Shown here piece by piece: positions 9,988 through 24,027 of a DNA stretch of 38,390 nt. Under the pieces are notes generated by a model that was not told the DNA's origin, ran no database searches, and worked only from the letters and a program-made list of their open reading frames with translations. Source of the DNA: Prevotella sp. (GTDB taxonomy: Bacteria; Bacteroidota; Bacteroidia; Bacteroidales; Bacteroidaceae); NCBI GenBank assembly GCA_017619445.1, contig JAFZSI010000052.1, positions 1 to 38,390 of the forward strand. Direction: 5' to 3'. Made by a program: the position numbers and the translations under genes. Each line of letters begins with the position of its first letter. The stretch's first letter is position 1.

Positions 9988-10023
9988 GTTACGTTGAAAT
10001 TTTCTAGAAAATTTATGCATAAA
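9988..10023. repeat. 36-bp palindromic element, copy 1
   Basis: The centre is an 18-bp perfect palindrome (AAATTTTCTAGAAAATTT, 9997-10014). The outer arms are GTTACG on the left and CATAAA on the right; the right arm has drifted from CGTAAA. Three further copies with the same layout occur at 10073, 26932 and 27016. Confidence 0.75.
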
Positions 10024-10072
10024 GCAAAGCTTTGTTATCGTCAATATTAACATGATAAAAACAGCATTACAC

Positions 10073-10108
10073 TTTACGTTGTAATTTTCTAGAAAATTTG
10101 AGCGTAAA
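10073..10108. repeat. 36-bp palindromic element, copy 2
   Basis: The centre is AATTTTCTAGAAAATT (10083-10098). The outer arms TTTACG and CGTAAA are exact reverse complements. This is the most symmetric of the four copies in the window. Confidence 0.8.
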
Positions 10109-10220
10109 GTATAGGTTTATAACAATAACATTTAGCATCAGAAATGCGAAGCATAGAGTTACGGGGCAGGAGTTACGGGTTGTGGTGGAAGATATGTAAA
10201 ATCGGTGTGTCATAGAGAAT

Positions 10221-10373
10221 ATGAACAGTGAAAAAACAGCGGAGAAATGGCCGAAAATTACTGTTCAGAATCAAGAAACAGGAAAAAACAGCTTGATTAA
10301 GGAGCGAAAGTGTAGAGAAATGGTTGATGTGGCGGTTTTTTACGCAGAATTGTTTGCGTTATTGCAAAAATAG
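10221..10373 (+). CDS. Doubtful 50-residue ORF upstream of the polysaccharide operon
   Basis: An ATG at 10221 opens 50 codons (MNSEKTAEKWPKITVQNQ onwards) ending in TAG at 10371. The residue mix is plausible for a small protein, and the frame sits alone in a gene-poor stretch. No promoter or ribosome-binding site is visible, and its 3' end overlaps the operon promoter at 10353-10384. I do not recognise it. It may be chance. Confidence 0.2.
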   Translation: MNSEKTAEKWPKITVQNQETGKNSLIKERKCREMVDVAVFYAELFALLQK

Positions 10374-10384
10374 CCGTACCTTTG
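10353..10384 (+). promoter_or_regulatory. Canonical promoter of the polysaccharide operon
   Basis: TTTG (10353-10356), a 20-nt spacer and TACCTTTG (10377-10384) match the Bacteroidota -33/-7 consensus exactly. The start point would be near 10390, leaving a leader of about 270 nt before the first gene at 10662. Confidence 0.8.
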
Positions 10385-10390
10385 CAATGC

Positions 10391-10661
10391 AATGTGAGCG
10401 AGGCATTGGTAGAATCTGCGAACCTTGAGTGTTCCCACGTGGAGTTTGCATCCCTTGCTGCATGCGTTTTATGGCTCAGTATGATGTGCTACACGGTCGG
10501 TTTTAAAAAACAGAACATATCGACCGTGAGCTATTATTGTGTCATATAATGTGTGCCGTAGTATGATTCTACCAGGAGTAAAAGAGTAAAGGAGAAGTGC
10601 CTTGAGCGCAGCAAAAAGGTGAGAGGGAATTGAGGACAAAAAGAGTTGTGGAAAAAAGGAA
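10391..10661 (+). promoter_or_regulatory. Long structured 5' leader of the polysaccharide operon
   Basis: The predicted transcript carries about 270 nt before the first start codon. Visible structure includes an 8-bp palindrome CCACGTGG (10435-10442). A hairpin is formed by CACGGTCG (10492-10499) and CGACCGTG (10521-10528), and its loop contains a smaller GTTTT/AAAAC stem. A purine-rich stretch GGAGTAAAAGAGTAAAGGAG (about 10575-10594) resembles repeats seen upstream of other genes here. Bacteroides capsule operons are known to use leader-acting NusG-like antiterminators (UpxY); no such gene lies in this window. A regulatory role is inferred only from length and structure. Confidence 0.45.
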
Positions 10662-11747
10662 ATGAGAATAGGTATTCTGACATTTCATAATGCCATTAAC
10701 CACGGTGCGGTGCTGCAGGCCTACGCAACGCAGACGCTGTTGTGCGACATGGGCCATGAGGCGGAACTGATTGACTACCGCAACGAGGCTGTGGAGAGTT
10801 ATTATGACAATATGCGCTTCCACCTTGGCGTACTGCTGAAGAAACGCAAGAAGCGCTACCTGCTCTCCCCTATTCTTTTCTGGCTGCAACGCCGTGCATT
10901 CAGCCGGTTCAACCGTAAGCATCTGAATGTGGCACCCAAAACGCGCAAACTGAATGAGTACGACCTTGTGCTCGCGGGCAGCGACCAGTTGTGGAACCTG
11001 CAGCTAACCGGTGGTTTCGACGACATGTTTTGGGGGAACACGGCTGCAGCTCAGCACACACGCATAGCATCGTGGGCAGTAAGCGCGGGCAGCAAAGCAC
11101 TGCCTATTGACAAAGAACAGACGGAGCGCATACGCACACTGCTCCGCAACTTTTGTGCACTTAGCGTGCGCGAGAATTCGTTGCAGGAGCGCATCAGCAA
11201 ACTGACGGACATGCCAGTGGTGCCGGTACTCGACCCCACCCTGCTGCTACCAGCTGAGCGCTGGAGTGCCTTGTGCCACAAGGTGCACACAAAAAACTAT
11301 GTGGTGGCCTACGCCGTTGAGTTCTGGGACAAGCGCAAGGTGGGCAGGGTTGCCAAACGCTTAGCTGAACGCATGGGCCTGAGCCTGGTGCTTATCCGCA
11401 TTTATGCTGATACGGGCTCCATGAAAGATGCGCTGCACGGGTTTGGCCCCGACGACTACTTGTCATATTTAAAGGATGCAAGCTATGTGGTCACCTCTTC
11501 GTTCCACGGTACGGCTTTTGCACTGATGTTCAAGAAACAGTTCTATTGTGTGGTTGACCCTGAAGTGGGCAACGTGCGTGTGCAGGACCTCCTCATCAAG
11601 GCAGGCATGGAAAGCCGCATTGTGGGTTACGACGCAGACTTCACGAATGTGGAAGACATAGACTATGAAAACTACGACCCATACGCCGCCTTGGCGGACG
11701 AACGGCGCCGGAGCATGGAGTTCTTGGAAAGAGTAATAAAAAAGTAG
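10662..11747 (+). CDS. Polysaccharide pyruvyl transferase family protein
   Basis: The 361-residue protein has the start typical of the CsaB/WcaK-like family (MRIGILTFHNAINHGAVLQA) and the late SSFHGTAFALMFKKQF segment with the conserved His. Family members transfer pyruvate from phosphoenolpyruvate to a sugar as a ketal, adding acid groups to surface polysaccharides. It is cytoplasmic, with no signal peptide. It is the first gene of the polysaccharide operon, and the next start codon is only 4 nt past its stop. Some proteins with this domain act on other acceptors, so the sugar target is unknown. Confidence 0.88.
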   Translation: MRIGILTFHNAINHGAVLQAYATQTLLCDMGHEAELIDYRNEAVESYYDNMRFHLGVLLKKRKKRYLLSPILFWLQRRAFSRFNRKHLNVAPKTRKLNEYDLVLAGSDQLWNLQLTGGFDDMFWGNTAAAQHTRIASWAVSAGSKALPIDKEQTERIRTLLRNFCALSVRENSLQERISKLTDMPVVPVLDPTLLLPAERWSALCHKVHTKNYVVAYAVEFWDKRKVGRVAKRLAERMGLSLVLIRIYADTGSMKDALHGFGPDDYLSYLKDASYVVTSSFHGTAFALMFKKQFYCVVDPEVGNVRVQDLLIKAGMESRIVGYDADFTNVEDIDYENYDPYAALADERRRSMEFLERVIKK

Positions 11748-11751
11748 AAAC

Positions 11752-12735
11752 ATGCTGGTATCAATCTTGGTTCCTGTCTATAATGCTGGCGAGTATCTGC
11801 GGCAATGCTTGACGTCGCTGACAGGCCAGAGTCACCGTGACATAGAATTGGTGTTGGTTGATGACGGCAGCACTGACGGGAGCGGACAGGTCTGCGACGA
11901 TTTGGCAGCGTCTGACTCACGTGTGAAGGTAATCCACAAAGAAAACGCTGGTGTGGCAGAAGCGCGCATCACGGCCTTTGAGCATTGTACAGGTGACTAT
12001 GTGACATTTGTGGATGCCGACGATTATGTGGCCAACACGCTGGTTGAATCAATGCTGAACATGGCCATTGAGTTTGATGCCGACATTGTGGCGTGTGGCC
12101 ATTTCAACGTGATGCAGCAAGGACAGAAAAAAGAACGTCACACCATGCGTGGACTCTACAACAAGGATGCTATCAGGAAAGCCATAAGCGAGTGTCTGCT
12201 TTACGACAAGAACACCCGCGCAAACGGCATGGCCATCTACTTGTGGGGCAAGCTGATGAGGCGCAGTCTGGTGGGCGAAGCATTGTTGCAGGGCCGCGGA
12301 CTGTGGTTTGCAGAAGACCAAATAGCCCTGTTTCACATGCTCTACCATGCGCAGAGACTCTACGTCATGCACGAACCACTGTATTACTATGTGCAGCACC
12401 CGCAACAAGTGAGTAAGCGCTACGACAGTTCCATCTGGGAGATGCAGGCTGAGTGCTGGCGACGCTACCGGAAGGTGGATTCCGACAATCTGTTAGGCGA
12501 GCAGTTAGACATGCGCATCTGGAAGTCCATCTACCTCACCATCAAGCAGCGCATCGCACCGAATGTAAATAGTGCCAAAGCTTTCGGAGTGGAATTGGAA
12601 AAAGCACGAAAGACAGACGAGATAGCTCGTTTCTTCAAAAAACGACGACTCAACGAGTCGCTGAAAGAAAATCTGAAGTTCTGGATGCTTAAATACCGGC
12701 TCTATACACTTTATTATAAAACGGTTGTAAGTTAG
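11752..12735 (+). CDS. GT2 family glycosyltransferase
   Basis: This 327-residue protein is a GT-A fold family 2 transferase. The first 100 residues hold VSILVPVYNAGEYLRQCL, the nucleotide-binding VLVDDGSTDGSG, and the metal-binding DAD in VTFVDADDYV. It would add a sugar from a nucleotide-sugar donor to the lipid-linked repeat unit on the cytoplasmic face of the inner membrane. Donor and linkage cannot be read. The C-terminal 100 residues are variable, as in many capsule GT2 enzymes. Confidence 0.92.
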   Translation: MLVSILVPVYNAGEYLRQCLTSLTGQSHRDIELVLVDDGSTDGSGQVCDDLAASDSRVKVIHKENAGVAEARITAFEHCTGDYVTFVDADDYVANTLVESMLNMAIEFDADIVACGHFNVMQQGQKKERHTMRGLYNKDAIRKAISECLLYDKNTRANGMAIYLWGKLMRRSLVGEALLQGRGLWFAEDQIALFHMLYHAQRLYVMHEPLYYYVQHPQQVSKRYDSSIWEMQAECWRRYRKVDSDNLLGEQLDMRIWKSIYLTIKQRIAPNVNSAKAFGVELEKARKTDEIARFFKKRRLNESLKENLKFWMLKYRLYTLYYKTVVS

Positions 12736-12755
12736 TACGGACATTTTCTATTCAA

Positions 12756-13784
12756 ATGGATAATACGAAAATTGATTTTGTGGTAACATGGCTCGACTCT
12801 AATGACCCAGAGTGGCAGAAGGATTACAGCCGATATAAAGGGGATGATTCGCAGGCTGACACAGGCAGGGCACGTTTTCGTGAGTGGGACTTGTTTCATT
12901 TCTGGTTTCGTGCTGTTGAGCAATATGCTCCGTGGGTAAACAAAGTGTTTCTGGTTACCAACGGCACCTTCCCGAAATGGATAAACCCGAATCACCCAAA
13001 GCTGGTACTCGTAAAGCATGAGGACTACATTCCACATGAACTGCTGCCCACATTTAACTCGCGAACTATCGAACTGTACATGCACAAGATTCCCGGTCTG
13101 TCGGAACACTTTGTGTATTTCAATGACGACTGCTACCTTAACCAACCCGTCAAACCGTCGTATTATTTCAGAAAGGGCCTGCCCTGCGACCGTAATAAAG
13201 AAACTGTTTTCAATGTGGCCCGTTATACCCCAGAAGACCGTTATAATACTTTTCTTTCGCTTTTGGCAAGTGTGAGCGTAGTCAATGGACACTTCCGTCG
13301 TCCGGCTGTCATCAGCAAGTCGTTACGCCGTTGGTTTGGCCCTCATTTAGGTTTCTCTGGCGTTCTGATCAGCTTGCTTGTTACTTGTTACCGCTTTGAG
13401 CGCTTTGTGGGTTTCAAAACCCGTCATGTGGAGCAACCATATCTCAAGACGATATTCGAAGACGCATGGAAAGCAGAGCCTGAATTGCTTCGCTCAAGCT
13501 GTACACGGTTTAGGGAAGAGTCGTCTTTGACAATCTATTTTTTTCGTTATTGGCAGTTTGCATCTAATAAGTTTTATCCAGTCAACTTGCACGGCATTAA
13601 TAAGATTCAAATAAGAAAAGAAAATGTGCATCGCATGGCAGAGGCGCTGCACAACAAAAAAACAAAATCACTTTGCCTGAACGACTGTCATTTTTGTACA
13701 GACAACGACTTTGTACCCATACAGCGTGTGCTAAAAGAGGAATTCGAAAAGAAATTCCCTGTAAAATCGGCATACGAACTATAG
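12756..13784 (+). CDS. Stealth-family sugar-phosphate transferase
   Basis: The 342-residue protein shows all four conserved regions of the Stealth family. CR1 is IDFVVTWLDSNDPEW (about residues 6-20). CR2 runs REWDLFHFWFRAVEQYAPWV to NDDCYLNQPV. CR3 lies around the FRYWQFASNKFY segment, and CR4 is LNDCHFCTDNDF to FPVKSAYEL at the C-terminus. Known members are hexose-1-phosphate transferases that build phosphodiester-linked capsules (Neisseria group A SacB, eukaryotic GNPTAB). It would transfer a sugar-1-phosphate from a nucleotide sugar in the cytoplasm. With the LicD and TagF-type genes downstream, it points to a phosphate-rich glycan. Confidence 0.9.
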   Translation: MDNTKIDFVVTWLDSNDPEWQKDYSRYKGDDSQADTGRARFREWDLFHFWFRAVEQYAPWVNKVFLVTNGTFPKWINPNHPKLVLVKHEDYIPHELLPTFNSRTIELYMHKIPGLSEHFVYFNDDCYLNQPVKPSYYFRKGLPCDRNKETVFNVARYTPEDRYNTFLSLLASVSVVNGHFRRPAVISKSLRRWFGPHLGFSGVLISLLVTCYRFERFVGFKTRHVEQPYLKTIFEDAWKAEPELLRSSCTRFREESSLTIYFFRYWQFASNKFYPVNLHGINKIQIRKENVHRMAEALHNKKTKSLCLNDCHFCTDNDFVPIQRVLKEEFEKKFPVKSAYEL

Positions 13785-13803
13785 GCGTACTCTAAGTAGA
13801 ACC

Positions 13804-14655
13804 ATGACAAAGAACGACAATTCCCCGACGCTTAATGAAATGTCAATCAAAGACATTCAGACTGTAAGCCTTGAATTGCTTTTAGATGTACACACTTTCT
13901 GCAAGGAGAATAACATCAACTACACGCTCTACGGCGGTACCATGATAGGGGCAGTTCGGCATGGTGGTTTTATTCCCTGGGACGACGATGTGGATGTTGC
14001 CATGCCGCGTCCTGACTATGAGCGGTTTATCAGCACTTACCAGTCAAAGCACGGCTATAAATTATTTGCGTCGGGCAGTGAGGAATGCTATCTGGCATTT
14101 TCACGGCTATGCGAAATGCAGCGCACACTGGTCACTGAAGACAGGTTGCCCTGGTGCAATCAGGCAACGGGCGTGTGGATTGACATCTTTCCGCTTGATG
14201 GAGCACCAGACGATGAGCGTGAGGCAGAGCGAAGTATCAAGAACATGCGTAGAAGATGGCTTCAAGGGTGCTATGCACGTTCAGCTCACTCTTCGTTCTC
14301 TGCCGCCACCACCTTATACAAGAAAGTAAAATTAGCATACAAAAAGCTATTTCTAAACAATCGTTTCCGCAACATTCATTTGATGAACAAGAAATACATA
14401 GAAGACTGCAAGCGCATCAAGTGGGGAGCAACGAAGCATTTCTGTAATTATGCTTTCATAACGTTCGGATTGCGCGAATACATTCCGATGGAAGACTATC
14501 AATCCACTGTGGATTTTTCCTTTGAAGGAACACCCATGTCAGTGTGTAACGGATATGACCATCTTATGCGTCACAAATATGGCGACTACATGCAGCTGCC
14601 CCCAATTGAAGAACAAGAGCCAAGACATAATCTTTGCCGATTCTATTGGAGGTAA
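13804..14655 (+). CDS. LicD-family phosphotransferase (LicD-1)
   Basis: The 283-residue protein carries the LicD signature: GGT at about residues 44-46, then GAVRHGGFIPWDDDVDVAMP with the acidic WDDD metal/catalytic cluster at 59-62, and a C-terminal YDHLMRHKYGDYMQLPP. LicD-type proteins transfer phosphocholine or other polyol/alcohol phosphates from CDP donors onto glycans. It resembles LicD-2 closely along its length, including the DIFPLDGAPD segment, so the two look like paralogs from one duplication. A TagD-type cytidylyltransferase follows 32 nt later and could supply its CDP donor. An internal ATG at 13840 is an alternative start. Confidence 0.9.
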   Translation: MTKNDNSPTLNEMSIKDIQTVSLELLLDVHTFCKENNINYTLYGGTMIGAVRHGGFIPWDDDVDVAMPRPDYERFISTYQSKHGYKLFASGSEECYLAFSRLCEMQRTLVTEDRLPWCNQATGVWIDIFPLDGAPDDEREAERSIKNMRRRWLQGCYARSAHSSFSAATTLYKKVKLAYKKLFLNNRFRNIHLMNKKYIEDCKRIKWGATKHFCNYAFITFGLREYIPMEDYQSTVDFSFEGTPMSVCNGYDHLMRHKYGDYMQLPPIEEQEPRHNLCRFYWR

Positions 14656-14687
14656 GCGCATAACTGGAAAGAAAAACCAAACTTACT

Positions 14688-16034
14688 ATGAAAAAAGTAA
14701 TAACATACGGAACTTACGACCTGTTACACCAAGGTCACATCAACCTGCTGCGACGTGCAAAAGCACTTGGCGACTATCTCATTGTGGGTGTTACAAATGA
14801 CAACTTTGACCGAGAGCGCGGCAAGTTGAATGTCAAGAACAATGTCTTAGAGCGCGTAGAGGCCGTCAAGGCTACAGGCCTAGCAGACAAAATCATTATT
14901 GAGGATTATGTGGGTCAGAAGATTGACGACATACAGAAATACGACGTTGACATCTTCACTGTGGGCTCCGACTGGGTGGGAAAGTTCGACTACCTGAACG
15001 AGTTTTGTGAAGTGGTCTATCTTCCACGTACAGAAGGTATTTCATCAACAATGCTGCGCGAAGAACAAGATGAAAATATCAGAATGGGCATTGTGGGAGC
15101 TGGACGTATTGCAAGGCGTTTCCCTGACGAAGCAAGCGTGGTGAGTGCCCTGAAATTAGCAGGTGTTTTTGATATTGAATTGCCACGGGCTCAAAAACTT
15201 GTAGAAACTCATCAGATGGAGAAAGCCTACGATTCGTTCGAAGATTTGGTGAATGATGTTGATGCTGTCTATATTGCCACACCACATCTGAACCATTACG
15301 AACAGTCGCGCTATGCACTGGAACAGAAAAAGCATGTGCTCTGCGAAACGCCTTTGGTACTGAAAGGCAGTGAGGCGCGTGAGTTGTTCAGCTTGGCCGA
15401 ACGAAACAATGTGGTGTTGCTCGAAGCCAATAAAACAGCCTATTGCCCTGCATTCAACCATCTTATAACAATGATAAAAAGCGGTCTGATTGGCGAGGTT
15501 GTAGACATTGAAGCATCTGAATCAAAAGTATGGGGTGACCCCACTTTGCGCGAACTTGACCCTAATCAGGCGGGCGGGTCGTTCTATGAGTTAGGCTCCT
15601 ATCCCCTACTGCCCATCATTAGGCTCATGGGCACCGACGTCCGCAACCTGAATGTATATTCTCGCATGGACAACGGTGTTGACATATATACAAAAGGAGT
15701 TATGCGCTTTGAAAAATCTGTATGCTCATTCAAGCTTGGCCTTGGTGTAAAAACAGAAGGAAACCTCGTGATTTCCGGCACTAAAGGTTATGCTTATGTG
15801 CCTGCTCCGTGGTGGAAGACAGACTACTTTGAGCTTCGTTATGAGGACCAAAATAAGAATAAAAAATTCTTCTATTCGTGGGATGGCGAAGGATTACGCT
15901 ATGAGATTCAGGAGTTTATCTCATGCATCTACAATAAACGCCTTTCTTCGGCCAAGTTGCGTCCTGCAGAGAGTATAGCCATGGCTGAACTTATGGAGCA
16001 GTTCGGAAAACGGGTAAACTTTATGGAAATATAG
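14688..16034 (+). CDS. Glycerol-3-phosphate cytidylyltransferase fused to Gfo/Idh/MocA oxidoreductase
   Basis: The 448-residue protein has two domains. Residues 1-127 are very like TagD: ITYGTYDLLHQGH with the HxGH motif (His14, His17), GSDWVGKFDYL, and RTEGISST at 114-121. This domain would make CDP-glycerol from CTP and glycerol-3-phosphate. Residues 131-448 are a Gfo/Idh/MocA dehydrogenase with the NAD(P)-binding MGIVGAGRIARR. The family's usual E-K-P motif reads E-T-P (220-222), losing the Lys often needed for catalysis, and the usual D-x-G-x-Y appears as ELGSY. The second domain may therefore be altered or inactive. Both domains are in one uninterrupted frame. The fusion recalls bifunctional CDP-ribitol synthases, but with different domains. 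Confidence 0.9.
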   Translation: MKKVITYGTYDLLHQGHINLLRRAKALGDYLIVGVTNDNFDRERGKLNVKNNVLERVEAVKATGLADKIIIEDYVGQKIDDIQKYDVDIFTVGSDWVGKFDYLNEFCEVVYLPRTEGISSTMLREEQDENIRMGIVGAGRIARRFPDEASVVSALKLAGVFDIELPRAQKLVETHQMEKAYDSFEDLVNDVDAVYIATPHLNHYEQSRYALEQKKHVLCETPLVLKGSEARELFSLAERNNVVLLEANKTAYCPAFNHLITMIKSGLIGEVVDIEASESKVWGDPTLRELDPNQAGGSFYELGSYPLLPIIRLMGTDVRNLNVYSRMDNGVDIYTKGVMRFEKSVCSFKLGLGVKTEGNLVISGTKGYAYVPAPWWKTDYFELRYEDQNKNKKFFYSWDGEGLRYEIQEFISCIYNKRLSSAKLRPAESIAMAELMEQFGKRVNFMEI

Positions 16035-16087
16035 CTGGAAGCACACGTGCAGAAGTATAGAATTGATTCATATATAGATTCTTTGAG

Positions 16088-17083
16088 ATGGCAAATCAAC
16101 GGAATCCTTATTTTGACACCATGAAATATGTGCTCATTGCACTTGTTGTATTTGGTCACACATTGGCGTCAAAAAAACATGCAGACATCAATTACCCGTT
16201 GTATGTAACCATGCTGTTGTTCAAAATGCCGTTGTTCATTTTTATTTCTGGCTACTTCTCAAAAGTTAAAGCCAAGGATTCCTTTTTCCAAGGGTTATTG
16301 AAGATTATTGAAACCTTCGTGGTTTTCCATTTCATTGGAGTAATCATAGCTTTGCTAAAAGGAGAACCGCTTACCCTGCGGCTTATGCTCACGCCTTCAT
16401 GGCCATACTGGTATTTGCTTTGCCTTGTATACTGGAGGCTGATGCTGTATTTCATTAACATTAGAAAGAACAACTGGAACCCTTTTGTGGTGCTGGCTGT
16501 TTCTGTGTTATTGGCCATTGGGGCGGGTTTTGTTCCCATTAATAAATTGTTTGAGTTTCAGCGTACATTCACTTTCTTGCCATTCTTTGTTGCAGGTGTT
16601 TATGCATCGAAACACCGACATTCATTCACTGAGACACCTTCCACTTCATATAGATTATTTGCTTTCCTGTTTTTGTTGTTTGTATTTACCTTGGCTTTTT
16701 TCATTGAGATCCCTCAAGACGAATTGTTTTTAGGAAGGACAAGTTACTATTATCTTGATGTTCCTGCAATAACAGGTTGCATCTACAGGATAATACATTT
16801 AGTCATGGCTTTTTCAATGGGCTTATGTGTCATGGCACTGATTCCACATAAGCAGACACCTGCAAGCAAGCTGGGACAGGAAACGCTGTTTGTCTATGTG
16901 TATCACACCTTCTTTGTCATAGCCCTCCGCTCTGCCATCAGAAACATGCATTTTCCTTCCAACACACTATGCATGATAATCTATGCTTCTATTATCTTAA
17001 TAGTGCTACATTTCTTGTATAATGTTCACTTCCTGCAGTTCATGCTGAACCCCATTACTAATTACAAAAAACAGAAAAAATAA
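16088..17083 (+). CDS. Acyltransferase 3 family membrane protein
   Basis: The 331-residue protein is strongly hydrophobic, with about nine or ten membrane segments. It begins with the family's typical FDTMKYVLIALVVFGHTL, which contains the conserved His. Acyltransferase-3 proteins sit in the inner membrane and commonly O-acetylate surface sugars using acetyl-CoA. In this operon it probably decorates the repeat unit with an acyl group. The DNA here is visibly AT-richer than in the first two genes of the operon. The next gene starts 7 nt after its stop. Confidence 0.85.
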   Translation: MANQRNPYFDTMKYVLIALVVFGHTLASKKHADINYPLYVTMLLFKMPLFIFISGYFSKVKAKDSFFQGLLKIIETFVVFHFIGVIIALLKGEPLTLRLMLTPSWPYWYLLCLVYWRLMLYFINIRKNNWNPFVVLAVSVLLAIGAGFVPINKLFEFQRTFTFLPFFVAGVYASKHRHSFTETPSTSYRLFAFLFLLFVFTLAFFIEIPQDELFLGRTSYYYLDVPAITGCIYRIIHLVMAFSMGLCVMALIPHKQTPASKLGQETLFVYVYHTFFVIALRSAIRNMHFPSNTLCMIIYASIILIVLHFLYNVHFLQFMLNPITNYKKQKK

Positions 17084-17090
17084 AAGAATA

Positions 17091-17828
17091 ATGATGAAAA
17101 GAATCTTAATTGTTGGCGGTGCAAACGGTATCGGCTTGTCTATGGCTCAGATTCTTGTAAAAAGAGAAACCACCGAAAAAGTATATATAGTGGACAAGGC
17201 TCCTCTTGCCGATGAGTTTAAAAACGAAAAGACAGAGAGCGTTGAGTTCAACCTTACTTCGAGTGATTATTCCATCTTTGACAAATACAATGATATAGAT
17301 GGACTGATTATCACTGCAGGATTTGGAAGACTGGCGTTGTTCAAAGATGTTCCCGAAGAAATGATAGATGCATACTTCAACGTAAACACCATTCCTGTAA
17401 TACGCATTGTCAAGCATTTTTACGACAAACTTTTAGGTGAGACGAAATTCTGTTGCGGCGTAATGGTCAGTATTGCTGGTTACATGTCCTCGCCATTCTT
17501 CTCACTCTATGGTGCCACAAAGGCAGCATTGAGGGTGTTCATTGAAAGCGTGAATGTGGAACTCGAAAAGGCTGGATCGAAAAACAGAATTCTCAATGTG
17601 TCACCAGGTTCACTTAAAGGCACCAGTTTCAACCAGGAGAAAACAGACCTAAGTGTTACGGAACCCATGGCAACAGAAATATTGAATCATATTGAGGCCC
17701 AAGACGATTTGTTCATCCCGCAATACGAGGAAATATTCAAACAGGTACTTGAACGATACCACAAGGATTTTCGTGAAGAAGGACGCCACAGCTACGACTA
17801 TAAGCTGAATTCAGGAAGAGTGAAATAG
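17091..17828 (+). CDS. Short-chain dehydrogenase/reductase
   Basis: The 245-residue protein is a classical SDR: VGGANGIGLSM is the NAD(P)-binding loop (residues 8-18), ITAGFGR stands for the NNAG segment, and VSIAGYMSS with YGATK supplies the catalytic Ser, Tyr and Lys. Its substrate is unknown. In this operon a likely role is reduction of a ketose or keto-sugar precursor, for example of a polyol phosphate to be activated by the nearby cytidylyltransferase. That is inference from position only. There are two adjacent ATG codons at the start (17091 and 17094). Confidence 0.88.
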   Translation: MMKRILIVGGANGIGLSMAQILVKRETTEKVYIVDKAPLADEFKNEKTESVEFNLTSSDYSIFDKYNDIDGLIITAGFGRLALFKDVPEEMIDAYFNVNTIPVIRIVKHFYDKLLGETKFCCGVMVSIAGYMSSPFFSLYGATKAALRVFIESVNVELEKAGSKNRILNVSPGSLKGTSFNQEKTDLSVTEPMATEILNHIEAQDDLFIPQYEEIFKQVLERYHKDFREEGRHSYDYKLNSGRVK

Positions 17829-17859
17829 TATGTAATTCAGAGAATAGGGGCAATTGGTT

Positions 17860-18693
17860 ATGCGAGAGATGACCATTACCGACATTCAGTCGGAAGAGTT
17901 GAAAATACTAAAAGACTTTCATGCCTTTTGTCTTAAAAAGAATTTGACCTATTCCTTGTATGGAGGAACAATGATTGGTGCTATAAGGCATCAAGGGTTT
18001 ATTCCTTGGGACGATGACCTCGATGTGGCAATGCCGAGACAAGATTATGACCGTTTTGTAAAAGAATATATATCTGACAATGGCTACATACTTCACTCGC
18101 TTGAATATGGAAACAGTATGCTAGCATTTGCTCGCATCTGTGAAATGAAAAAGACATTAGTGAAACAATCGTTGCCATGGTGCGAACATGAGACAGGCAT
18201 TTATATCGATGTGTTTCCGCTCGACGGTGCTCCAGATAATCCTACAGAAGCAAAAAGATTTGTACAACAGCTACACCAAAAATGGATGTGCGTGAAACTG
18301 AACAGGGTTTCTCTGCGTAATATGAAGAAATACCGAAAACAAAAAACTAAGATGAATATCCTTGTTCGGAAAATGCTATTTAGAAATCCCATATCCAAAC
18401 GCATAGACTGGCTTTCACGTCTTGACAATGCTTGCAGGGCAATTCCATTTGGAAGCACTGGCCATTTCATCAATGCTGCCTTCGGTGAATACGGCGTGAA
18501 AGAGTACCAACTCACTGAGGATTTCACTCATACTGTGATGAAGCAATTTGAGGACGGAGAGTTCTGTGTGTGCAATGGGTACGATAGGCTTATGCGCACA
18601 AAGTATGGCGATTATATGCAGATGCCTCCTGAAAACAAACGCCTGCTAAAACACAGAGGTTCAAAGTACTATTGGAAAGAGGAGAGCCAATAG
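17860..18693 (+). CDS. LicD-family phosphotransferase (LicD-2)
   Basis: The 277-residue protein has GGTMIGAIRHQGFIPWDDDL at residues 35-54 and the C-terminal YDRLMRTKYGDYMQMPP. It is a close relative of LicD-1 by motif order and wording. An upstream in-frame TTG at 17854 exists, but the ATG at 17860 aligns better with LicD-3 and is chosen. It would transfer an alcohol-phosphate from a CDP donor to the glycan. It lies 31 nt before the TagB/TagF-like gene, suggesting action on the same phosphopolymer. Confidence 0.9.
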   Translation: MREMTITDIQSEELKILKDFHAFCLKKNLTYSLYGGTMIGAIRHQGFIPWDDDLDVAMPRQDYDRFVKEYISDNGYILHSLEYGNSMLAFARICEMKKTLVKQSLPWCEHETGIYIDVFPLDGAPDNPTEAKRFVQQLHQKWMCVKLNRVSLRNMKKYRKQKTKMNILVRKMLFRNPISKRIDWLSRLDNACRAIPFGSTGHFINAAFGEYGVKEYQLTEDFTHTVMKQFEDGEFCVCNGYDRLMRTKYGDYMQMPPENKRLLKHRGSKYYWKEESQ

Positions 18694-18724
18694 TAAACTC
18701 AATTGCATTTATTTAGAAAAGCAT

Positions 18725-19909
18725 ATGCGCTTTAGCACCATTTTAAGCAAGTCTGTCAGTCATTTTTCTGCTCATTTAAACTTTATTTTTGCACGTATTG
18801 CTGTGGGGATGAAGAAGCCTGAGCGAAACAAGTACTTCTGTATGAGTCTGCTTGGTGAAAGCTATGGTGACAACATTAAACCCCTCTCTGACTATTTGGC
18901 TGAAAATGAAGAGAGGGCACAGATAGTATGGGCGTTCAATAAACACTTTACCGGTTTATCCAGTTGTCCACATAAGGCAGTCAAGCTATACACTTTCAGC
19001 TATTACTACCACATGCTCACCTCCAAATTCATTCTCAGTAACGCACGGCTGAATCAGCGAATGATGCACAAACGCAAAGGACAAGTGTATTTGCAAACAT
19101 GGCATGGAACTGCACTGAAACGACTGGGCACGGATATTAAAAGGCAGCGAAGCCCCTGGGAACAGATGTACAATCCTGGTGTATTTGAATTTGATGTAGG
19201 CAATACAGACATTATGATTTCTGGATCTCGATTCATGACCAATATATTCCGAGAGAAATTCCAGTATAAAGGAATGATTGCAGAGACGGGCACGCCACGT
19301 ACAGACATTTTCTTTCACTACAATCCCATGATTAAGACGAAAGTCTGTCAGGCTTTTGGGTTAGAAGAAGGAAAACAGCTCATTCTATACGCACCTACAT
19401 ACAGGGCAGACAAACAATACACATTCTATGACATTGACTTGAAGAAGGTTAAGGACACATGGGAACGCAAAACCGGACGCTCATGCGACATTATGGTGCG
19501 TCTGCATCCCAAACTACGCCCCAACAAACAAGCATTTGAACAAGTTTTCGGAAACAACATCACTGATGCGTCTGCTTATTCAGACATGCAGGAACTGCTT
19601 TATGCCACCGATTTGTTTGTCACAGATTATTCCTCCACAATGTTTGACTTCATGTACACAGGGCGCCCCGTGCTACTCTACACTCCTGACCGCGAATCCT
19701 ACAACCGTGGTTTTTATTTCCAACTCCAGGAACTGCCGTTCATGGTTATTAACAACAATAACGAGATAGAGCATCAACTCAATGCTTTTGATGCCAATTC
19801 TTATGCCACCCGCATCGAGTTGTTCAAACGAAAGATAGGTTCTGTAGAGTCGGGAAACGCGACAGAACAAGTTATCCGTTTGCTTCAAACATATAATGAA
19901 TGCAATTAA
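18725..19909 (+). CDS. CDP-glycerol glycerophosphotransferase family protein (TagB/TagF-like)
   Basis: The 394-residue protein belongs to the TagB/TagF/TarL polyol-phosphate transferase family. Family landmarks are the LQTWHGTALKRLGTD segment with its conserved His, the MVRLHPKLRPN stretch, and the donor-site FVTDYSSTMFDFMYTGRP close to the C-terminus. In Gram-positive bacteria such enzymes prime or polymerise glycerol- or ribitol-phosphate chains from CDP-polyols. The length fits a single catalytic domain (TagB-like) rather than long two-domain TagF. With the TagD-type domain upstream it implies CDP-glycerol use. It is probably peripheral to the inner membrane. Confidence 0.92.
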   Translation: MRFSTILSKSVSHFSAHLNFIFARIAVGMKKPERNKYFCMSLLGESYGDNIKPLSDYLAENEERAQIVWAFNKHFTGLSSCPHKAVKLYTFSYYYHMLTSKFILSNARLNQRMMHKRKGQVYLQTWHGTALKRLGTDIKRQRSPWEQMYNPGVFEFDVGNTDIMISGSRFMTNIFREKFQYKGMIAETGTPRTDIFFHYNPMIKTKVCQAFGLEEGKQLILYAPTYRADKQYTFYDIDLKKVKDTWERKTGRSCDIMVRLHPKLRPNKQAFEQVFGNNITDASAYSDMQELLYATDLFVTDYSSTMFDFMYTGRPVLLYTPDRESYNRGFYFQLQELPFMVINNNNEIEHQLNAFDANSYATRIELFKRKIGSVESGNATEQVIRLLQTYNECN

Positions 19910-19953
19910 ATGGCGCATCTGCAGATGACCACACATGAGCATCTAAACAAAAC

Positions 19954-21255
19954 ATGCTGAACAGACTTTTAAATAAACCTTGGCTCAACAAGTTGCTTGA
20001 AGCACAATTTTTCCTTGTGTGGATAGCGTGCTCTGGTCTCCCAAAACGATACGTCAAGATTTTGTTTGTCAGCGAGATTGTTCTTTTTTCTGTCATGGCA
20101 ATACTCAACTGGCGCACTATATACAAATACCTTACCTTGTCAAAATCAGGCAAATCAATGGTATGGCTATATATAGCATTCTTTGCGGTGGCAGGTGTCT
20201 ATTTATGGCTTTCTTACAAAGACTTGCCCTATTTCTGGCGCATTCCACTACTGCTCTACGACCAGGAATACATATACCGACAATTCATGATAGTCACAGA
20301 GTTGTTTGTTCCATTGGGGCTCAGTTTCATCATGGCAAGAACAGGAACAATATATAAGGCCAATTCTCTGTTCCTTTTTATTTTTCTCGCCGGCGTTGTT
20401 GGACTTTATTATTCTGGACATGCCAACAAGATTATGCTTTCCGGACTTGTTGTCTCATTGTCGAGCCTTCTTGCCCTGAAAACGCGCAATTATCTCTATC
20501 TGTTACTGATTCCACTCGTCATTTCCAACCACTCTGCTTACAACATAGCCGCAGCAGTCACGGTGGGAATGATTATCTTGCGACGTCCAACAAAGGCTTT
20601 CCTTGCCCACCACACCACATGGCGCATCCTCTTTTTGTTGCTCGTCATCGCACTTATTATATACCATTATTCTGATGACATATACGAAATCATTACCACA
20701 GACGAGAACTCACTATGGCGACTTAGGGTGTGGGAAAACGAAATCAACACGCTTTCTGACACCTATTATACAGGAGTAGGTTTTGGCACTTCATACGTAA
20801 CCTACGACATCTATACAATTGTGAACAATTCCAACATGTATTTCGATAAAGACCGCACACTATACGGACGACTTTTCATGGTGGCCAACCACAATTCGTT
20901 TCTCAACATGTTCTATCGCATGGGATATGTTGGTGGCATCATTTTCACGTTGCTCAACATCATGATCTGCTCGTTCACAATTCACTGCTACCGGAAAGCC
21001 AAAGAGTTCAGAAGATATATTTGGTGGGCGTTCTCATGTTTTGTCTATCAAATCATCATCATCTTCCTCAATCCTGGACTTGAAATGATGCAGTTTGCCA
21101 TCAATTACATGGGGTCGCTGTCCATGTTGCTGGCTGTTAATTACAGTCATGTGCTGGTGATGAAAGGAAAACGAAGCTATCTGCATCGCTTATACGTCAA
21201 AGCACAATGGAGAAAAATACAATTGAAGACATTCATAGCCACCTCCTTGCGTTAG
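19954..21255 (+). CDS. Wzy-like O-antigen/capsule polymerase
   Basis: The 433-residue protein is very hydrophobic, with about ten or more membrane segments. A large hydrophilic stretch around residues 245-310 (HYSDDIYEIITTDENS onwards) is probably the periplasmic loop seen in Wzy proteins. No single catalytic motif is diagnostic, so the call rests on topology and position in the operon. It would polymerise lipid-linked repeat units in the periplasm. Its last 49 nt overlap the start of LicD-3. An O-antigen ligase or another membrane protein cannot be excluded. Confidence 0.75.
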   Translation: MLNRLLNKPWLNKLLEAQFFLVWIACSGLPKRYVKILFVSEIVLFSVMAILNWRTIYKYLTLSKSGKSMVWLYIAFFAVAGVYLWLSYKDLPYFWRIPLLLYDQEYIYRQFMIVTELFVPLGLSFIMARTGTIYKANSLFLFIFLAGVVGLYYSGHANKIMLSGLVVSLSSLLALKTRNYLYLLLIPLVISNHSAYNIAAAVTVGMIILRRPTKAFLAHHTTWRILFLLLVIALIIYHYSDDIYEIITTDENSLWRLRVWENEINTLSDTYYTGVGFGTSYVTYDIYTIVNNSNMYFDKDRTLYGRLFMVANHNSFLNMFYRMGYVGGIIFTLLNIMICSFTIHCYRKAKEFRRYIWWAFSCFVYQIIIIFLNPGLEMMQFAINYMGSLSMLLAVNYSHVLVMKGKRSYLHRLYVKAQWRKIQLKTFIATSLR

Positions 21256-22034
21256 GCAAAGCATTCCATCAGCTTTGCCTACTACACCATATACCTTATT
21301 TTATATTAGGAGGCACCATGCTCGGCGCTTTTCGCCACAAAGGGTTCATACCCTGGGACGATGACATGGACTTTGGAATTCCCCGTGAACACTACAACCG
21401 CTTCCTTGAAATAGCCCGACAAGAAATCGAAGCACCCTATATTGTGCTCGACTATCATAACTCTCAATACGTGTCTTTGGGATTTGCCAAGATGGCAGAC
21501 ATGCAAACAGTCATAAAAGAGACCTACAGACCACAATGCGACGAACAGATTGGCATCAACATAGACATCTTTCCTCTTGACCTAACCAATGGTAAAAAAG
21601 GTCTGTTTTCGTTCAACGCACACATCAGAAGATTATTCAAACTGCAGAAACTACTTAGCTTCGAAGACAAGAACCGACCTGCAACCAAACGACTCTTGGC
21701 AAAAGCAGCCAAGAGTCTGCTTTTCTTCAGTCCCAACCTACCGTCAAAAATACAGCAGTACATAGAACACAGAGTGACCACAACATCTATTCCTCAAACC
21801 GCCTATTTCAGCAATTTTTTAGGTGGATGGGGACTTCAAGAGCTGGTGCCCATCTCAGTTTTTGGCGAGCCAACACTCTATCAATTCGAAGACACAGCCT
21901 TTTATGGTCCACAGTACCCTGAACAATACTTAGAAACACTATACGGAGACTACACCACCCTACCTCCAGAAAACCAACGACACACTCACACCTGCGAAGC
22001 CTATATAATCACCCATCACCCATCTCCCAAATGA
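21207..22034 (+). CDS. LicD-family phosphotransferase (LicD-3)
   Basis: The 275-residue protein has GGTMLGAFRHKGFIPWDDDM at residues 35-54 and the late LYGDYTTLPP. It differs more from LicD-1 and LicD-2 than they differ from each other. The start at 21207 overlaps the polymerase gene by 49 nt, and its N-terminus lines up with LicD-2, which supports it. The last residues (IITHHPSPK) are encoded by three heptamers related to ATCACCC. The stop overlaps the next start as ATGA at 22031. It probably transfers a further phospho-alcohol to the glycan. Confidence 0.9.
   Translation: MEKNTIEDIHSHLLALGKAFHQLCLLHHIPYFILGGTMLGAFRHKGFIPWDDDMDFGIPREHYNRFLEIARQEIEAPYIVLDYHNSQYVSLGFAKMADMQTVIKETYRPQCDEQIGINIDIFPLDLTNGKKGLFSFNAHIRRLFKLQKLLSFEDKNRPATKRLLAKAAKSLLFFSPNLPSKIQQYIEHRVTTTSIPQTAYFSNFLGGWGLQELVPISVFGEPTLYQFEDTAFYGPQYPEQYLETLYGDYTTLPPENQRHTHTCEAYIITHHPSPK
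22008..22028 (+). repeat. Three tandem 7-bp units (ATCACCC type) at the end of LicD-3
   Basis: ATCACCC, ATCACCC and ATCTCCC follow each other directly and encode part of the LicD-3 C-terminus just before the GT4 start codon. Confidence 0.7.
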
Positions 22035-23128
22035 AAAAAATACTGTTTGTACTACACCTTCCACCGCCTGTTTACGGGGCATCCATGGTTGGGAAATACA
22101 TACACGACAGCGAGCTAATCAATAATGCTTTCACATGCCGATACGTCAGCCTGACATTGGCTACTAACATCAGCGACATAGGTAAGCCCAGCATACGCAA
22201 AGCCATCGACTACCTAAAGCAGTATCGAAGCATAAGACGGCAGGCACGCGACTTTCAGCCTGATTTGATATATGTCACCCCTAATGCCACCGGCGGAGCA
22301 TTCTATAAAGACTTCTTCATTGTGCAAATGCTGAAACGCCTGACACCACAAGTCATTGTTCATTACCACAACAAAGGCATTCGGCACAGGCAAGACAAGA
22401 CCTTTGACAACAGGCTATATCGCCACTTCTTCAAAAACCTGAAAGTCATCCTTATAGCCAAACCGCTATACATAGACGTGAAGAAATACGTCAGTCCAGA
22501 CAACGTCTATTTCTGTCCGAACGGAATACCCCTCTCGCCCAACACCCAACACCCAACACTCAACACCCAACACCCGGCACTCCTCCGCATTCTTTTTTTG
22601 AGCAACATGATAGAATCAAAAGGAGTGTGGACACTGTTAAGCGCATGCCAACAGTTGCGCGACCAAGGATGCACCTTTCAGTGCGACTACGTAGGAAACT
22701 GGAGCGATGTTGATGAGAAAACATTCAACAACCAAGTAGCAGAACTCAAATTGGGAGAGCAAGTCAAGGCACATGGAGGAGTTTATGGCGATGACCGCTC
22801 AAACTTCTTTAATCGTGCAGACGTGTTTGTACTGCCTACCTATTACCCCAACGAATGTTTCCCTCTCGTGCTGCTCGAGGCCATGCAACACGGCATTCCT
22901 TGCATCTCCACCAACGAAGGAGCCATTACCGATATTATTGACGACGGGCAGACAGGCTTCATCATTCCTGCCAACAATCCATCAATGCTGGCCGACAAAC
23001 TGCAGTTCCTCTCTGAGAATCCTAAACAAAGAAAGGAAATGGGACAGCGAGGCTATCTAAAATTCAAAGACAACTACACCATCAACCACTTTGAAACCCG
23101 TCTCCTAAACATTCTGCATAATGCTTAA
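22031..23128 (+). CDS. GT4 family glycosyltransferase with heptanucleotide repeat insert
   Basis: The 365-residue protein is a GT-B fold family 4 transferase. The C-terminal half has NECFPLVLLEAMQ, the family E-x7-E motif, followed by GIPCISTNEGAITDII. The N-terminal PPPVYGASMVGKY segment is the acceptor-side loop. Residues 171-184 are encoded by six 7-bp units (22541-22582) and lie between the two domains, where they look like an insertion. Six units keep the frame, but other numbers, unless changed by three, would not. It starts at an ATGA overlap with LicD-3. Donor sugar unknown. Confidence 0.92.
   Translation: MKKILFVLHLPPPVYGASMVGKYIHDSELINNAFTCRYVSLTLATNISDIGKPSIRKAIDYLKQYRSIRRQARDFQPDLIYVTPNATGGAFYKDFFIVQMLKRLTPQVIVHYHNKGIRHRQDKTFDNRLYRHFFKNLKVILIAKPLYIDVKKYVSPDNVYFCPNGIPLSPNTQHPTLNTQHPALLRILFLSNMIESKGVWTLLSACQQLRDQGCTFQCDYVGNWSDVDEKTFNNQVAELKLGEQVKAHGGVYGDDRSNFFNRADVFVLPTYYPNECFPLVLLEAMQHGIPCISTNEGAITDIIDDGQTGFIIPANNPSMLADKLQFLSENPKQRKEMGQRGYLKFKDNYTINHFETRLLNILHNA
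22541..22582 (+). repeat. Six tandem 7-bp units (AACACCC) inside the GT4 gene
   Basis: Units are AACACCC, AACACCC, AACACTC, AACACCC, AACACCC and GGCACTC. They total 42 nt and encode 14 residues in frame at positions 171-184 of the glycosyltransferase. Confidence 0.85.
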
Positions 23129-23172
23129 TGCATAATTCATAATGCATAATTATCAATTGTCAATTAGTCAAA
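23117..23172 (+). repeat. Low-complexity repeat before the WecG/TagA gene
   Basis: The spacer is built of repeated CATAATGCATAAT-like and CAATTGTCAATTAG-like units. The same AATTGTCAAATT family recurs at 25785-25835. It may have replaced the original ribosome-binding region and ATG of the next gene, which now seems to start at TTG. Confidence 0.6.
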
Positions 23173-23949
23173 TTGTTTCGTCTTTCTGAAATAAAACTTC
23201 TGCCATCGCGAGATGCGCTCAAGGCCATTCCCGAAGGTAAGATACTGATAAACACCATCAATGCCCATTCATTCAATGTGGCTCAAAAAGATGTGCTCTT
23301 TGCCGAAGCTTTGCTGAAAGGAGACTACCTATGCCCCGACGGCATGAGCATCGTCAAGGCATGCCGATGGCTCAAAACACCCTCATGTCCAAAAGAGCGC
23401 ATAGCAGGTTGGGATTTGTTCGTCTGTGAAATGGACAAACTCAACAAGAAGTTTGAAACCTCAACACCCAACACCCAAACGACCAAACGACCAACACCCC
23501 AAAAGCCCGTCTGCATGTTCGTGGGCAGTACTGACAATGTGCTCACCCTTATCCGCCAGCGCGCAGCCACCGAATATCCCAACATTCAGGTTGTCACCCT
23601 CTCGCCACCCTTCAAGCCCGAGTTTACTGACGAAGACAACCGCCAAATCATCAATGCCATCAACAACACCAACCCCGACCTCCTCTGGATTGGCATGACA
23701 GCACCCAAGCAAGAGAAATGGATTTACAGCCAGTGGCAGCAACTCAACATCCATTGCCACGCAGGAACCATTGGCGCAGTCTTCGATTTCTATGCCGGAA
23801 CAGTACGCCGAGCCCCTGAGTTCTGGCAACGACACTCTTTGGAATGGCTTCACCGCCTGCTCAGCAATCCCCGACGTATGTGGCGGCGATACATCCTCGG
23901 CAATCCTCTGTTCATCTATTATATCATCAGGGAAAAGTTAAAAGGCTGA
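23173..23949 (+). CDS. WecG/TagA/CpsF family glycosyltransferase
   Basis: The 258-residue protein is a GT26 transferase. It has INTINAHSFNVA, YLCPDGMSIV and GWDLF in the N-terminal half, then FVGSTDNV, MTAPKQEKWI and GAVFDFYAGTVRRAPEF. Family members add ManNAc or ManNAcA to lipid-linked GlcNAc, the second step of enterobacterial common antigen or wall teichoic acid linkage-unit synthesis. No ATG is available near the N-terminus; TTG at 23173 gives the expected start. Residues 96-110 come from a repeat-like tract. It is the last gene of the operon, and a strong terminator follows. Confidence 0.9.
   Translation: MFRLSEIKLLPSRDALKAIPEGKILINTINAHSFNVAQKDVLFAEALLKGDYLCPDGMSIVKACRWLKTPSCPKERIAGWDLFVCEMDKLNKKFETSTPNTQTTKRPTPQKPVCMFVGSTDNVLTLIRQRAATEYPNIQVVTLSPPFKPEFTDEDNRQIINAINNTNPDLLWIGMTAPKQEKWIYSQWQQLNIHCHAGTIGAVFDFYAGTVRRAPEFWQRHSLEWLHRLLSNPRRMWRRYILGNPLFIYYIIREKLKG
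23463..23500 (+). repeat. Repeat tract inside the WecG/TagA gene
   Basis: Two AACACCC units are followed by two AAACGACC units and AACACCCC. The tract encodes a Thr/Pro-rich stretch (residues 96-110) between the two halves of the enzyme. Confidence 0.7.
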
Positions 23950-23983: not shown

Positions 23984-24027
23984 AAAAGGCGCAAGACTTA
24001 TTAAATGGTCTTGCGCCTTTTTGTTTT
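23984..24027 (+). terminator. Rho-independent terminator of the polysaccharide operon
   Basis: AAAAGGCGCAAGAC (23984-23997) pairs with GTCTTGCGCCTTTT (24008-24021) across a 10-nt loop and runs into a T-rich tail. It lies 35 nt after the WecG/TagA stop and between convergent genes, so it may also stop ettA transcripts. Confidence 0.9.

Follow-up and report, generated by a model that had tools for sequence, protein, structure and literature searches.

What would a Gram-negative member of the Bacteroidales build with genes reminiscent of wall teichoic acid synthesis? The question is raised by an operon of 13 co-directional open reading frames (ORFs) on the + strand of a Prevotella sp. contig (GenBank assembly GCA_017619445.1, contig JAFZSI010000052.1, positions 10662-23949). 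The window analysed here is this entire contig (C63; 38,390 bases), part of a draft genome of 2.87 Mb in 81 contigs that is 85% complete. An earlier note on this DNA had recognised a cytidine diphosphate (CDP)-glycerol synthase domain of the TagD type, and had proposed a glycan rich in glycerol-phosphate or sugar-phosphate. Pfam bears out its list of three LicD genes and one gene each of the TagF, Stealth and WecG/TagA types. The TagD-type domain is also present; it is, however, fused to an oxidoreductase domain of the Gfo/Idh/MocA family, which the note had missed, and in related loci this fusion is accompanied by one of three exchangeable partner enzymes. We read the operon as specifying a surface glycan of repeating units with phosphodiester linkages or decorations. 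Its building block would come from a modular cassette of the fusion and a short-chain dehydrogenase/reductase (SDR), feeding the LicD and TagF-type transferases; we regard this reading as evenly poised between right and wrong.

A cytidylyltransferase fused to an oxidoreductase domain

The fusion gene (14688..16034, +) encodes 448 amino acids, of which residues 1-126 form the TagD-type domain (CTP_transf_like) and residues 130-448 the Gfo/Idh/MocA domain (GFO_IDH_MocA). Both cytidylyltransferase motifs claimed earlier, HQGH (HxGH) and RTEGISST, are found in the translation, and the nearest solved relatives of the domain are glycerol-3-phosphate cytidylyltransferases. Its score against the TIGR01518 equivalog model is 119 bits, below the cut-off of 165 (165.4). 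The family is conserved, mostly in gut Bacteroidales and also in Fibrobacter and Clostridia. A total of 580 fusion loci were found, and partners and residues were counted over 86 fusions, in all of which H14, H17, R114, T115, S119 and S120 of the TagD domain are kept.

The MocA domain has the Gfo/Idh/MocA fold and the NAD-binding GxG motif. The latter is kept in 84 of the 86 fusions, being lost in loci L035 and L036; both lack a detected partner, yet retain the TagD domain and an adjoining LicD gene. In the C-terminal part, the GTKG...PWW residues are invariant across 74 aligned sequences. The catalytic lysine of the family lies in an EKP motif (PMC7535918, PMC5969746). At this position the window has Thr221, and the 86 fusions have threonine (60), isoleucine (12), lysine (8), serine (3), leucine (2) or valine (1), whereas lysine is present in all four aligned PDB relatives. 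The set K-E-Y is confined to the eight lysine-type fusions, which form one clade, so that 78 of 86 lack a complete MocA triad. With the NAD fold preserved but the canonical lysine gone, the domain would be either a binding domain or an altered oxidoreductase.

A structure model built on the alignment of 74 sequences, from which L085, L092, L098, L101, L103, L105, L113 and five fusions from the G genomes were left out, reached a predicted local distance difference test (pLDDT) score of 91; an earlier model from six sequences, of low quality (pLDDT 56), was set aside. The nearest characterised folds include the sugar ketoreductase KijD10 and the UDP-N-acetylglucosamine (UDP-GlcNAc) 3-dehydrogenase GnnA. 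The fold search hits were filled by MocA chains, and the TagD half is therefore assigned to its family by sequence. In one locus (L105, 2109-3436) in-frame stops lie within the match to the fusion gene, which is thus broken or misassembled there. Taken as a whole, the fusion is an undescribed enzyme that probably makes the activated building block of the operon; neither it, nor the exchange of its partners, nor a modular cassette of this kind was found reported among open-licence papers.

Exchangeable partners of the fusion

The immediate neighbours of 80 fusions were surveyed, with a + strand gene counted downstream in 69 loci and upstream in 61. They fall mainly into four clusters, namely two dissimilar SDR types (SDR-A, 20; SDR-B, 17), a class-V aminotransferase (17) and LicD (17); by Pfam, an SDR lies downstream in 37 of 69 and LicD upstream in 15 of 61. 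If any match above 300 bits in the fetched locus is called a partner, 71 of the 86 fusions bear one: SDR-A in 24, SDR-B in 19, the aminotransferase in 26 and two of these in 2, with none in the other 15. In the window the partner is SDR-A (17091..17828, +; PF00106 77 bits, SDR-A family 434 bits). Both SDR families keep YxxxK, and the aminotransferase family keeps a QK lysine, which we take to be the pyridoxal phosphate lysine. An SDR gene directly follows the fusion in 38 of 46 cases, 25 of them with a 4-nt overlap of stop and start.

Partners change often on the fusion tree. This tree was made by a quick method with Shimodaira-Hasegawa-like approximate likelihood ratio (SH-aLRT) support alone, and over its 69 single-partner rows the partner changes 14 times, compared with 25-39 times in shuffles. 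The aminotransferase accompanies two separate groups of fusions, and near-identical fusions occur with different SDRs (L075 and L076, 90% identical; the window and L038, 83%). Such frequent exchange around a constant core would be expected were every partner to act on one and the same compound. Furthermore, seven of the eight lysine-type fusions are without a detected partner, as against 8 of the 78 others; three of these seven have limited surroundings, since the contigs of L109 and L115 are short and there is little sequence to one side of L112.

Candidate transferases for phosphate-linked groups

The three LicD proteins (LicD 1, 13804..14655; LicD 2, 17854..18693; LicD 3, 21207..22034; all +) score 154, 131 and 138 bits against PF04991, whose cut-off is 22.6, and each has a WDDD motif. 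LicD 1 and LicD 2 are near paralogues within a four-row starred set on the LicD tree, and LicD 3 is distant, in a separate clade. Over the 59 rows of that tree from single-partner loci, the label of the fusion's partner changes 10 times, compared with 16-29 times in 300 locus-wise shuffles, an agreement that fits LicD proteins being tuned to the partner's product.

The TagF/TarF-type polyol-phosphate transferase (18725..19909, +) is a protein of 394 residues with a single PF04464 (Glyphos_transf) domain, matched at 263 bits over positions 12-365 of 367. Among solved proteins it matches TagF (3l7i, 3e-35) and Cps3D (8qoy, 5e-30). Its WHGT and RxH (RLH) histidines, the two catalytic histidines of such transferases, align with those of TagF. 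It falls under the TarF, TarB and TarL equivalog cut-offs, scoring 163 against 550 bits for TarF. The Stealth protein (12756..13784, +), a sugar-phosphate transferase by type, is matched by PF11380 in conserved region (CR) 2 at 139 bits, against a cut-off of 39.4; CR1 and CR4, at 25 bits each, are about 2 bits short of theirs, and CR3 was not reported in the Pfam scan. Thus, of the motifs listed in the earlier note, WHGTALK, DYSSTMFDF, PKQEKW and the three WDDD clusters are all in the translations, while only CR2 of the four Stealth regions passes its cut-off. Its count of five candidate phosphotransferases (three LicD, one TagF-type, one Stealth) is correct. The WecG/TagA/CpsF protein (23173..23949, +; PF03808 164 bits, TIGR00696 above cut-off) is a glycosyltransferase and not a phosphotransferase, contrary to the note's view that each family supplies phosphodiester-linked groups.

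Beside some fusions (five neighbours, such as L089 11349-12419 and L048 8932-9990) there is also a little group of proteins with weak likeness to TarL/surf_polysacc, perhaps additional transferases belonging to this system.

What the building block may be

In the reading we favour, the TagD domain would transfer CMP onto a small polyol or carbonyl compound that carries phosphate, and the identity of the polyol would be set by a redox step of SDR-A, before or after cytidylylation. Where SDR-B or the aminotransferase replaces SDR-A in relatives, the outcome would be another stereoisomer of the polyol, or an amino-polyol. The MocA domain could act as an altered oxidoreductase on the CDP-linked compound, or could bind that compound and pass it to the partner. 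The three LicD proteins and the TagF-type protein would then move polyol-phosphate onto sugars, and Stealth would move sugar-1-phosphate. Gene content, the domain fusion, its conservation, the association and exchange of partners and the residue losses are observed, while substrate, sequence of steps, product, specificity of transfer and location at the surface are inferred. A phosphodiester-rich surface glycan, as proposed in the earlier note, is what the gene set naturally suggests. The CDP-glycerol step is not supported as it stands, given a TagD domain under its cut-off, the fusion to an oxidoreductase, a nearby partner in 71 of 86 loci and a TagD-like enzyme, CpgD, that uses phosphoglycerate (PMC12275187). 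Because of CpgD, glycerol-phosphate is not established as the building block, and the exchange of the finishing partner among related gut bacteria means that it is too early to call this block plain glycerol-phosphate.

The plainest alternative is nevertheless the one implied by the earlier note, in which sn-glycerol-3-phosphate is turned into CDP-glycerol by the fusion, with a vestigial MocA domain and an SDR that serves another sugar pathway. The closest solved relatives of the TagD domain, which are glycerol-3-phosphate cytidylyltransferases, its intact HxGH and RTEGIS motifs and the best matches of the TagF-type protein, which are glycerol-phosphate transferases, speak for it. So do the incomplete triad in 78 of 86 fusions and the loss of GxG in L035 and L036, where no partner was detected but the TagD domain and an adjacent LicD gene are kept. 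We consider it unlikely, though a serious contender, since a GxG kept in 84 of 86 and invariant GTKG...PWW residues are unlike a vestige, one of three specific partners stands at 71 of 86 loci, often with overlapping SDR starts, and 119 bits fall short of 165. Rather improbable, in our view, is that the TagD domain activates another three-carbon acid (phosphoglycerate) or a tetritol or pentitol phosphate, with redox preceding activation. CpgD provides the example for phosphoglycerate (PMC12275187) and CDP-ribitol synthesis, in which a reductase acts before the cytidylyltransferase, that for the order of steps (PMC10918830); against this, no residue pattern examined indicates a substrate, and the closest solved relatives are named as glycerol-3-phosphate enzymes. 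It is decidedly improbable that MocA domain and SDR modify a UDP- or dTDP-sugar for this glycan, with co-expression as the sole reason for their fusion or linkage to the cytidylyltransferase: KijD10 and GnnA are indeed among the nearest characterised folds, but fusion to the same cytidylyltransferase spans Bacteroidales to Clostridia, which argues for a shared substrate.

A decoration with aminoethylphosphonate or phosphocholine, transferred by LicD and with PhnW as the relatives' aminotransferase, has precedents in the 2-aminoethylphosphonate of B. fragilis CPS-B (PMC12413058) and in the LicD-like genes of phosphonate loci (PMC6697681). The PhnW-AepZ model, whose cut-off is 361 bits, gives the three aminotransferases tested a mere 127-152 bits, and two of them obtain a higher score with BhcA. 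A phosphoenolpyruvate (PEP) mutase match was obtained in 12 of 20 aminotransferase-bearing genomes (those of 20 of the 27 aminotransferase loci, the seven further loci lying outside the search), six above cut-off, three above 180 bits and the others under 34 bits. PEP mutase also does not rank among the 25 most frequent of the 95 families represented in 93 neighbouring proteins, a set of 94 minus one ORF antisense to an aminotransferase, which leaves out L047, L098, L104, the G-genome loci, proteins over 900 residues and families already known. No phosphonate gene or aminotransferase was found among the window genes scanned. On the PEP mutase search and the scan of the 93 neighbours, phosphonate was rejected as a general explanation, and we think it very improbable indeed for this operon.

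Several observations weigh against the cassette itself. Literature searches found no enzyme of the fusion family with known activity, and the 80 named loci were taken from the 580 for their likeness to the window, hence a non-random sample. No partner is seen in 15 of 86 loci; in five of these (L094, L109, L112, L113 and L115) the available stretch is short or one-sided, and the other ten have several kilobases on both sides. In 39 of the 86 fetched loci no LicD exceeds 80 bits, and the agreement between LicD and partner may in part reflect shared ancestry of the loci. In the window, an acyltransferase gene sits between fusion and SDR-A; in the related locus L037 there is no acyltransferase at that place, and the SDR begins 88 nt past the fusion. 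The SDR could instead belong to a nucleotide-sugar pathway. The correlation of lysine and partner amounts to a single event, as the tree shows one such change, in one clade, and in L111 the lysine coexists with SDR-B. Finally, structures of KijD10 lysine mutants exist, and loss of the lysine need not abolish activity; the mutants are reportedly partly active.

If the cassette works as we read it, new CDP-activated donors are to be expected, an amino-polyol among them, and single genes would serve as predictors of coat chemistry in rumen and gut species; the chemistry of phosphate-linked surface glycans in gut Bacteroidales is little known. More tentatively, and with rather less than even confidence, we suggest that the fusion is the hub of undescribed activated-polyol pathways that share one carbonyl or polyol intermediate, CDP-linked or phosphorylated. 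The exchangeable partner would pick the donor, and the MocA lysine would have been lost in partner-bearing lineages as redox passed to the partner. Were this true, the two SDR types or the aminotransferase would yield stereoisomeric CDP-polyols or a CDP-amino-polyol, and the swap of one gene would let gut bacteria change the phospho-building block of their coat.

Polymerisation and export

The Wzy-type pathway proposed in the earlier note is represented in the operon in part. The operon has one Wzy/WaaL-type membrane protein (19954..21255, +; PF04932 (Wzy_C) 42 bits), a probable polymerase, and the glycan is probably Wzy-polymerised; the Pfam scan of the operon found neither Wzx nor an initiating transferase (PF02397). 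Elsewhere in the genome, PF02397 has two matches, on C71 and C11, Poly_export occurs on C47, and Wzx-like PF13440 has four matches (C11, C69, C7 and C67). The remaining export genes would come from these other contigs. Outside the window the same genome (G000) has five further LicD matches, two full length and three partial (C59, C11, C69, C74 and C53), giving eight LicD rows altogether, the highest number among 295 sampled Bacteroidales genomes. C11, with its initiating transferase and flippase-like match, is probably a second polysaccharide locus.

How rare the gene set is

The earlier note had called the set of phosphotransferases exceptional. In the sample of 295 Bacteroidales genomes (243 at ≥ 90% completeness and ≤ 5% contamination), PF04464 is above cut-off in 50, Stealth CR2 in 17 and LicD in 40. 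PF04464 and Stealth lie no more than 20 kb apart on one contig in a single genome, that of the window, and at least three LicD genes inside 10 kb occur in three (G000, G055 and G178), all with the fusion. Most of these genomes are drafts, and a pair split across contigs would escape the count. A full-length fusion was found in 6 of the 295, and, among 395 genomes sampled across the phylum (E ≤ 1e-70), in one, again the window's own; in both searches at most four or five candidates were scored per genome. The scarcity of the pairing and of LicD clusters means that "exceptional" holds for Bacteroidales at large.

The combination is not unique. When loci are searched for TagF-type, LicD and Stealth genes together with the fusion, as the note had proposed, 6 of 86 have them: the window, L037, L051, L055, L064 and L101. 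L037 (Prevotella sp. UBA3776) has an operon of almost the same content, with proteins 59-91% identical to those of the window and with fusion (91%) and SDR (87%) the most similar. Its GT4 match is divided between two ORFs, and two additional genes lie 5′ of the pyruvyl transferase gene, one TagF-type-transferase-like and one acyltransferase-like by our reading of a single result.

In the 295 genomes, the fusion has a LicD gene within 10 kb in five of six cases. Matches to TagD alone adjoin PF04464 genes in three of five (G221:C17, G057:C213 and G250:C29), the PF04464 match in G057 being weak at 24 bits; these mark a plainer CDP-glycerol-like system within the Bacteroidales.

The operon and its surroundings

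Intergenic spacing in the operon ranges from -49 to 53 nt; ORFs in the loci were called by the longest-ORF rule, and a few calls may be wrong. By Pfam, a polysaccharide pyruvyl transferase (10662..11747, +; PF04230 (PS_pyruv_trans) 113 bits) comes first, followed by a family 2 glycosyltransferase (GT2; 11752..12735, +; PF00535 130 bits), Stealth, LicD 1, the fusion, a membrane acyltransferase of the O-acetylation type (16088..17083, +; PF01757 (Acyl_transf_3) 80 bits), SDR-A, LicD 2, the TagF-type transferase, Wzy_C, LicD 3, a family 4 glycosyltransferase (GT4; 22031..23128, +; PF00534 116 bits) and WecG/TagA. Directly past the last gene, a 14-nt perfect inverted repeat (23984-24021) is a likely terminator. 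To the left lies a block of FAD-linked oxidase, GH92 and GH125 genes (glycoside hydrolases), and to the right an ABC-F and cation-efflux block. Guanine-plus-cytosine content is 39-47% in ten operon genes, 50-54% in the first two and the last, and 53-58% in five measured flanking genes. Contrasts of this sort are usual for exchanged surface-polysaccharide loci.

Upstream of the operon, a 5′ leader (10361..10552, +) combines promoter-like sequence with a structured RNA (fold z -3.28 for the window copy). It is 73% identical to L037 3198-3392, where the corresponding operon comes next, and a long hairpin ending in ATCGACCGTGAGCTATTATTGTG is conserved between the two; two-sided changes were looked for in this pair of sequences and none was seen. 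No further match at E ≤ 0.001 was found within the window's own genome, and among the other 294 sampled Bacteroidales genomes matches of just 22-32 nt occur in five. L119 has one 24-nt match (E 0.006), two short matches inspected (L125 and L129) are not ahead of capsule genes as judged from ORFs, and nothing in Rfam reached gathering score. A widespread capsule element was therefore rejected, as L037 alone matches across most of the length; the leader is possibly an antitermination or regulatory leader. Further upstream (9989-10113), two 36-nt inverted arms, 81% complementary and 47 nt apart, each contain a core of TTTTCTAGAAAA and may mark an invertible or repeat element.

Comparison with known systems

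Like the wall teichoic acid pathway (TagA/TarA, TagB, TagD, TagF/TarF), the operon joins a WecG/TagA-type, a TagD-type and a TagF/TarF-type component, and its glycan is likely teichoic-acid-like in carrying phosphodiesters. The likeness to wall teichoic acid drawn in the earlier note is one of parts alone: TagD-only genes go with PF04464, the fusion with LicD. Unlike that pathway, the operon is in a Gram-negative host and has neither the ABC exporter TagGH nor a second PF04464 gene of the TagB type (the genome, at its 85% completeness, has one PF04464 gene); its TagD domain is fused to MocA, and three LicD proteins, Stealth and a Wzy-type protein are present besides.

Teichoic-acid-like capsules of Gram-negative bacteria are already published (PMC5974469), and the general idea is therefore not new. 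TagF-like capsule polymerases have been described in Actinobacillus, Neisseria and Bibersteinia (PMC5974469, PMC8262930), and a Bacteroides capsule bearing 2-aminoethylphosphonate is known (PMC12413058, PMC6697681). With these polymerases, as the match to Cps3D indicates, the operon has in common a TagF-type domain for a presumed surface polymer; unlike the multidomain enzymes of group 2 capsules, its protein is 394 residues long with a single PF04464 domain, and a Wzy-type gene is part of the locus. The pairs HS5.18/HS5.17 (CDP-6-glucitol) and Mnp1/Mnp2 (CDP-mannitol) provide another parallel, with the cytidylyltransferase acting first and the oxidoreductase second (PMC10918830). Here, too, a cytidylyltransferase and an oxidoreductase would act in sequence and give a CDP-polyol, a product proposed from the genes. 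In those pairs, however, PF01128 and PF01370 are separate proteins, whereas here PF01467 is fused to GFO_IDH_MocA and the SDR or aminotransferase is exchangeable.

Nucleotide-sugar pathways have keto hubs of their own, such as dTDP-4-keto-6-deoxyglucose or the products of UDP-GlcNAc 3-dehydrogenases with their aminotransferase, in which one activated keto compound is served by alternative reductases or aminotransferases. If our reading is right, the TagD-MocA fusion would differ from these in that its hub compound would be a CDP- or phospho-polyol.

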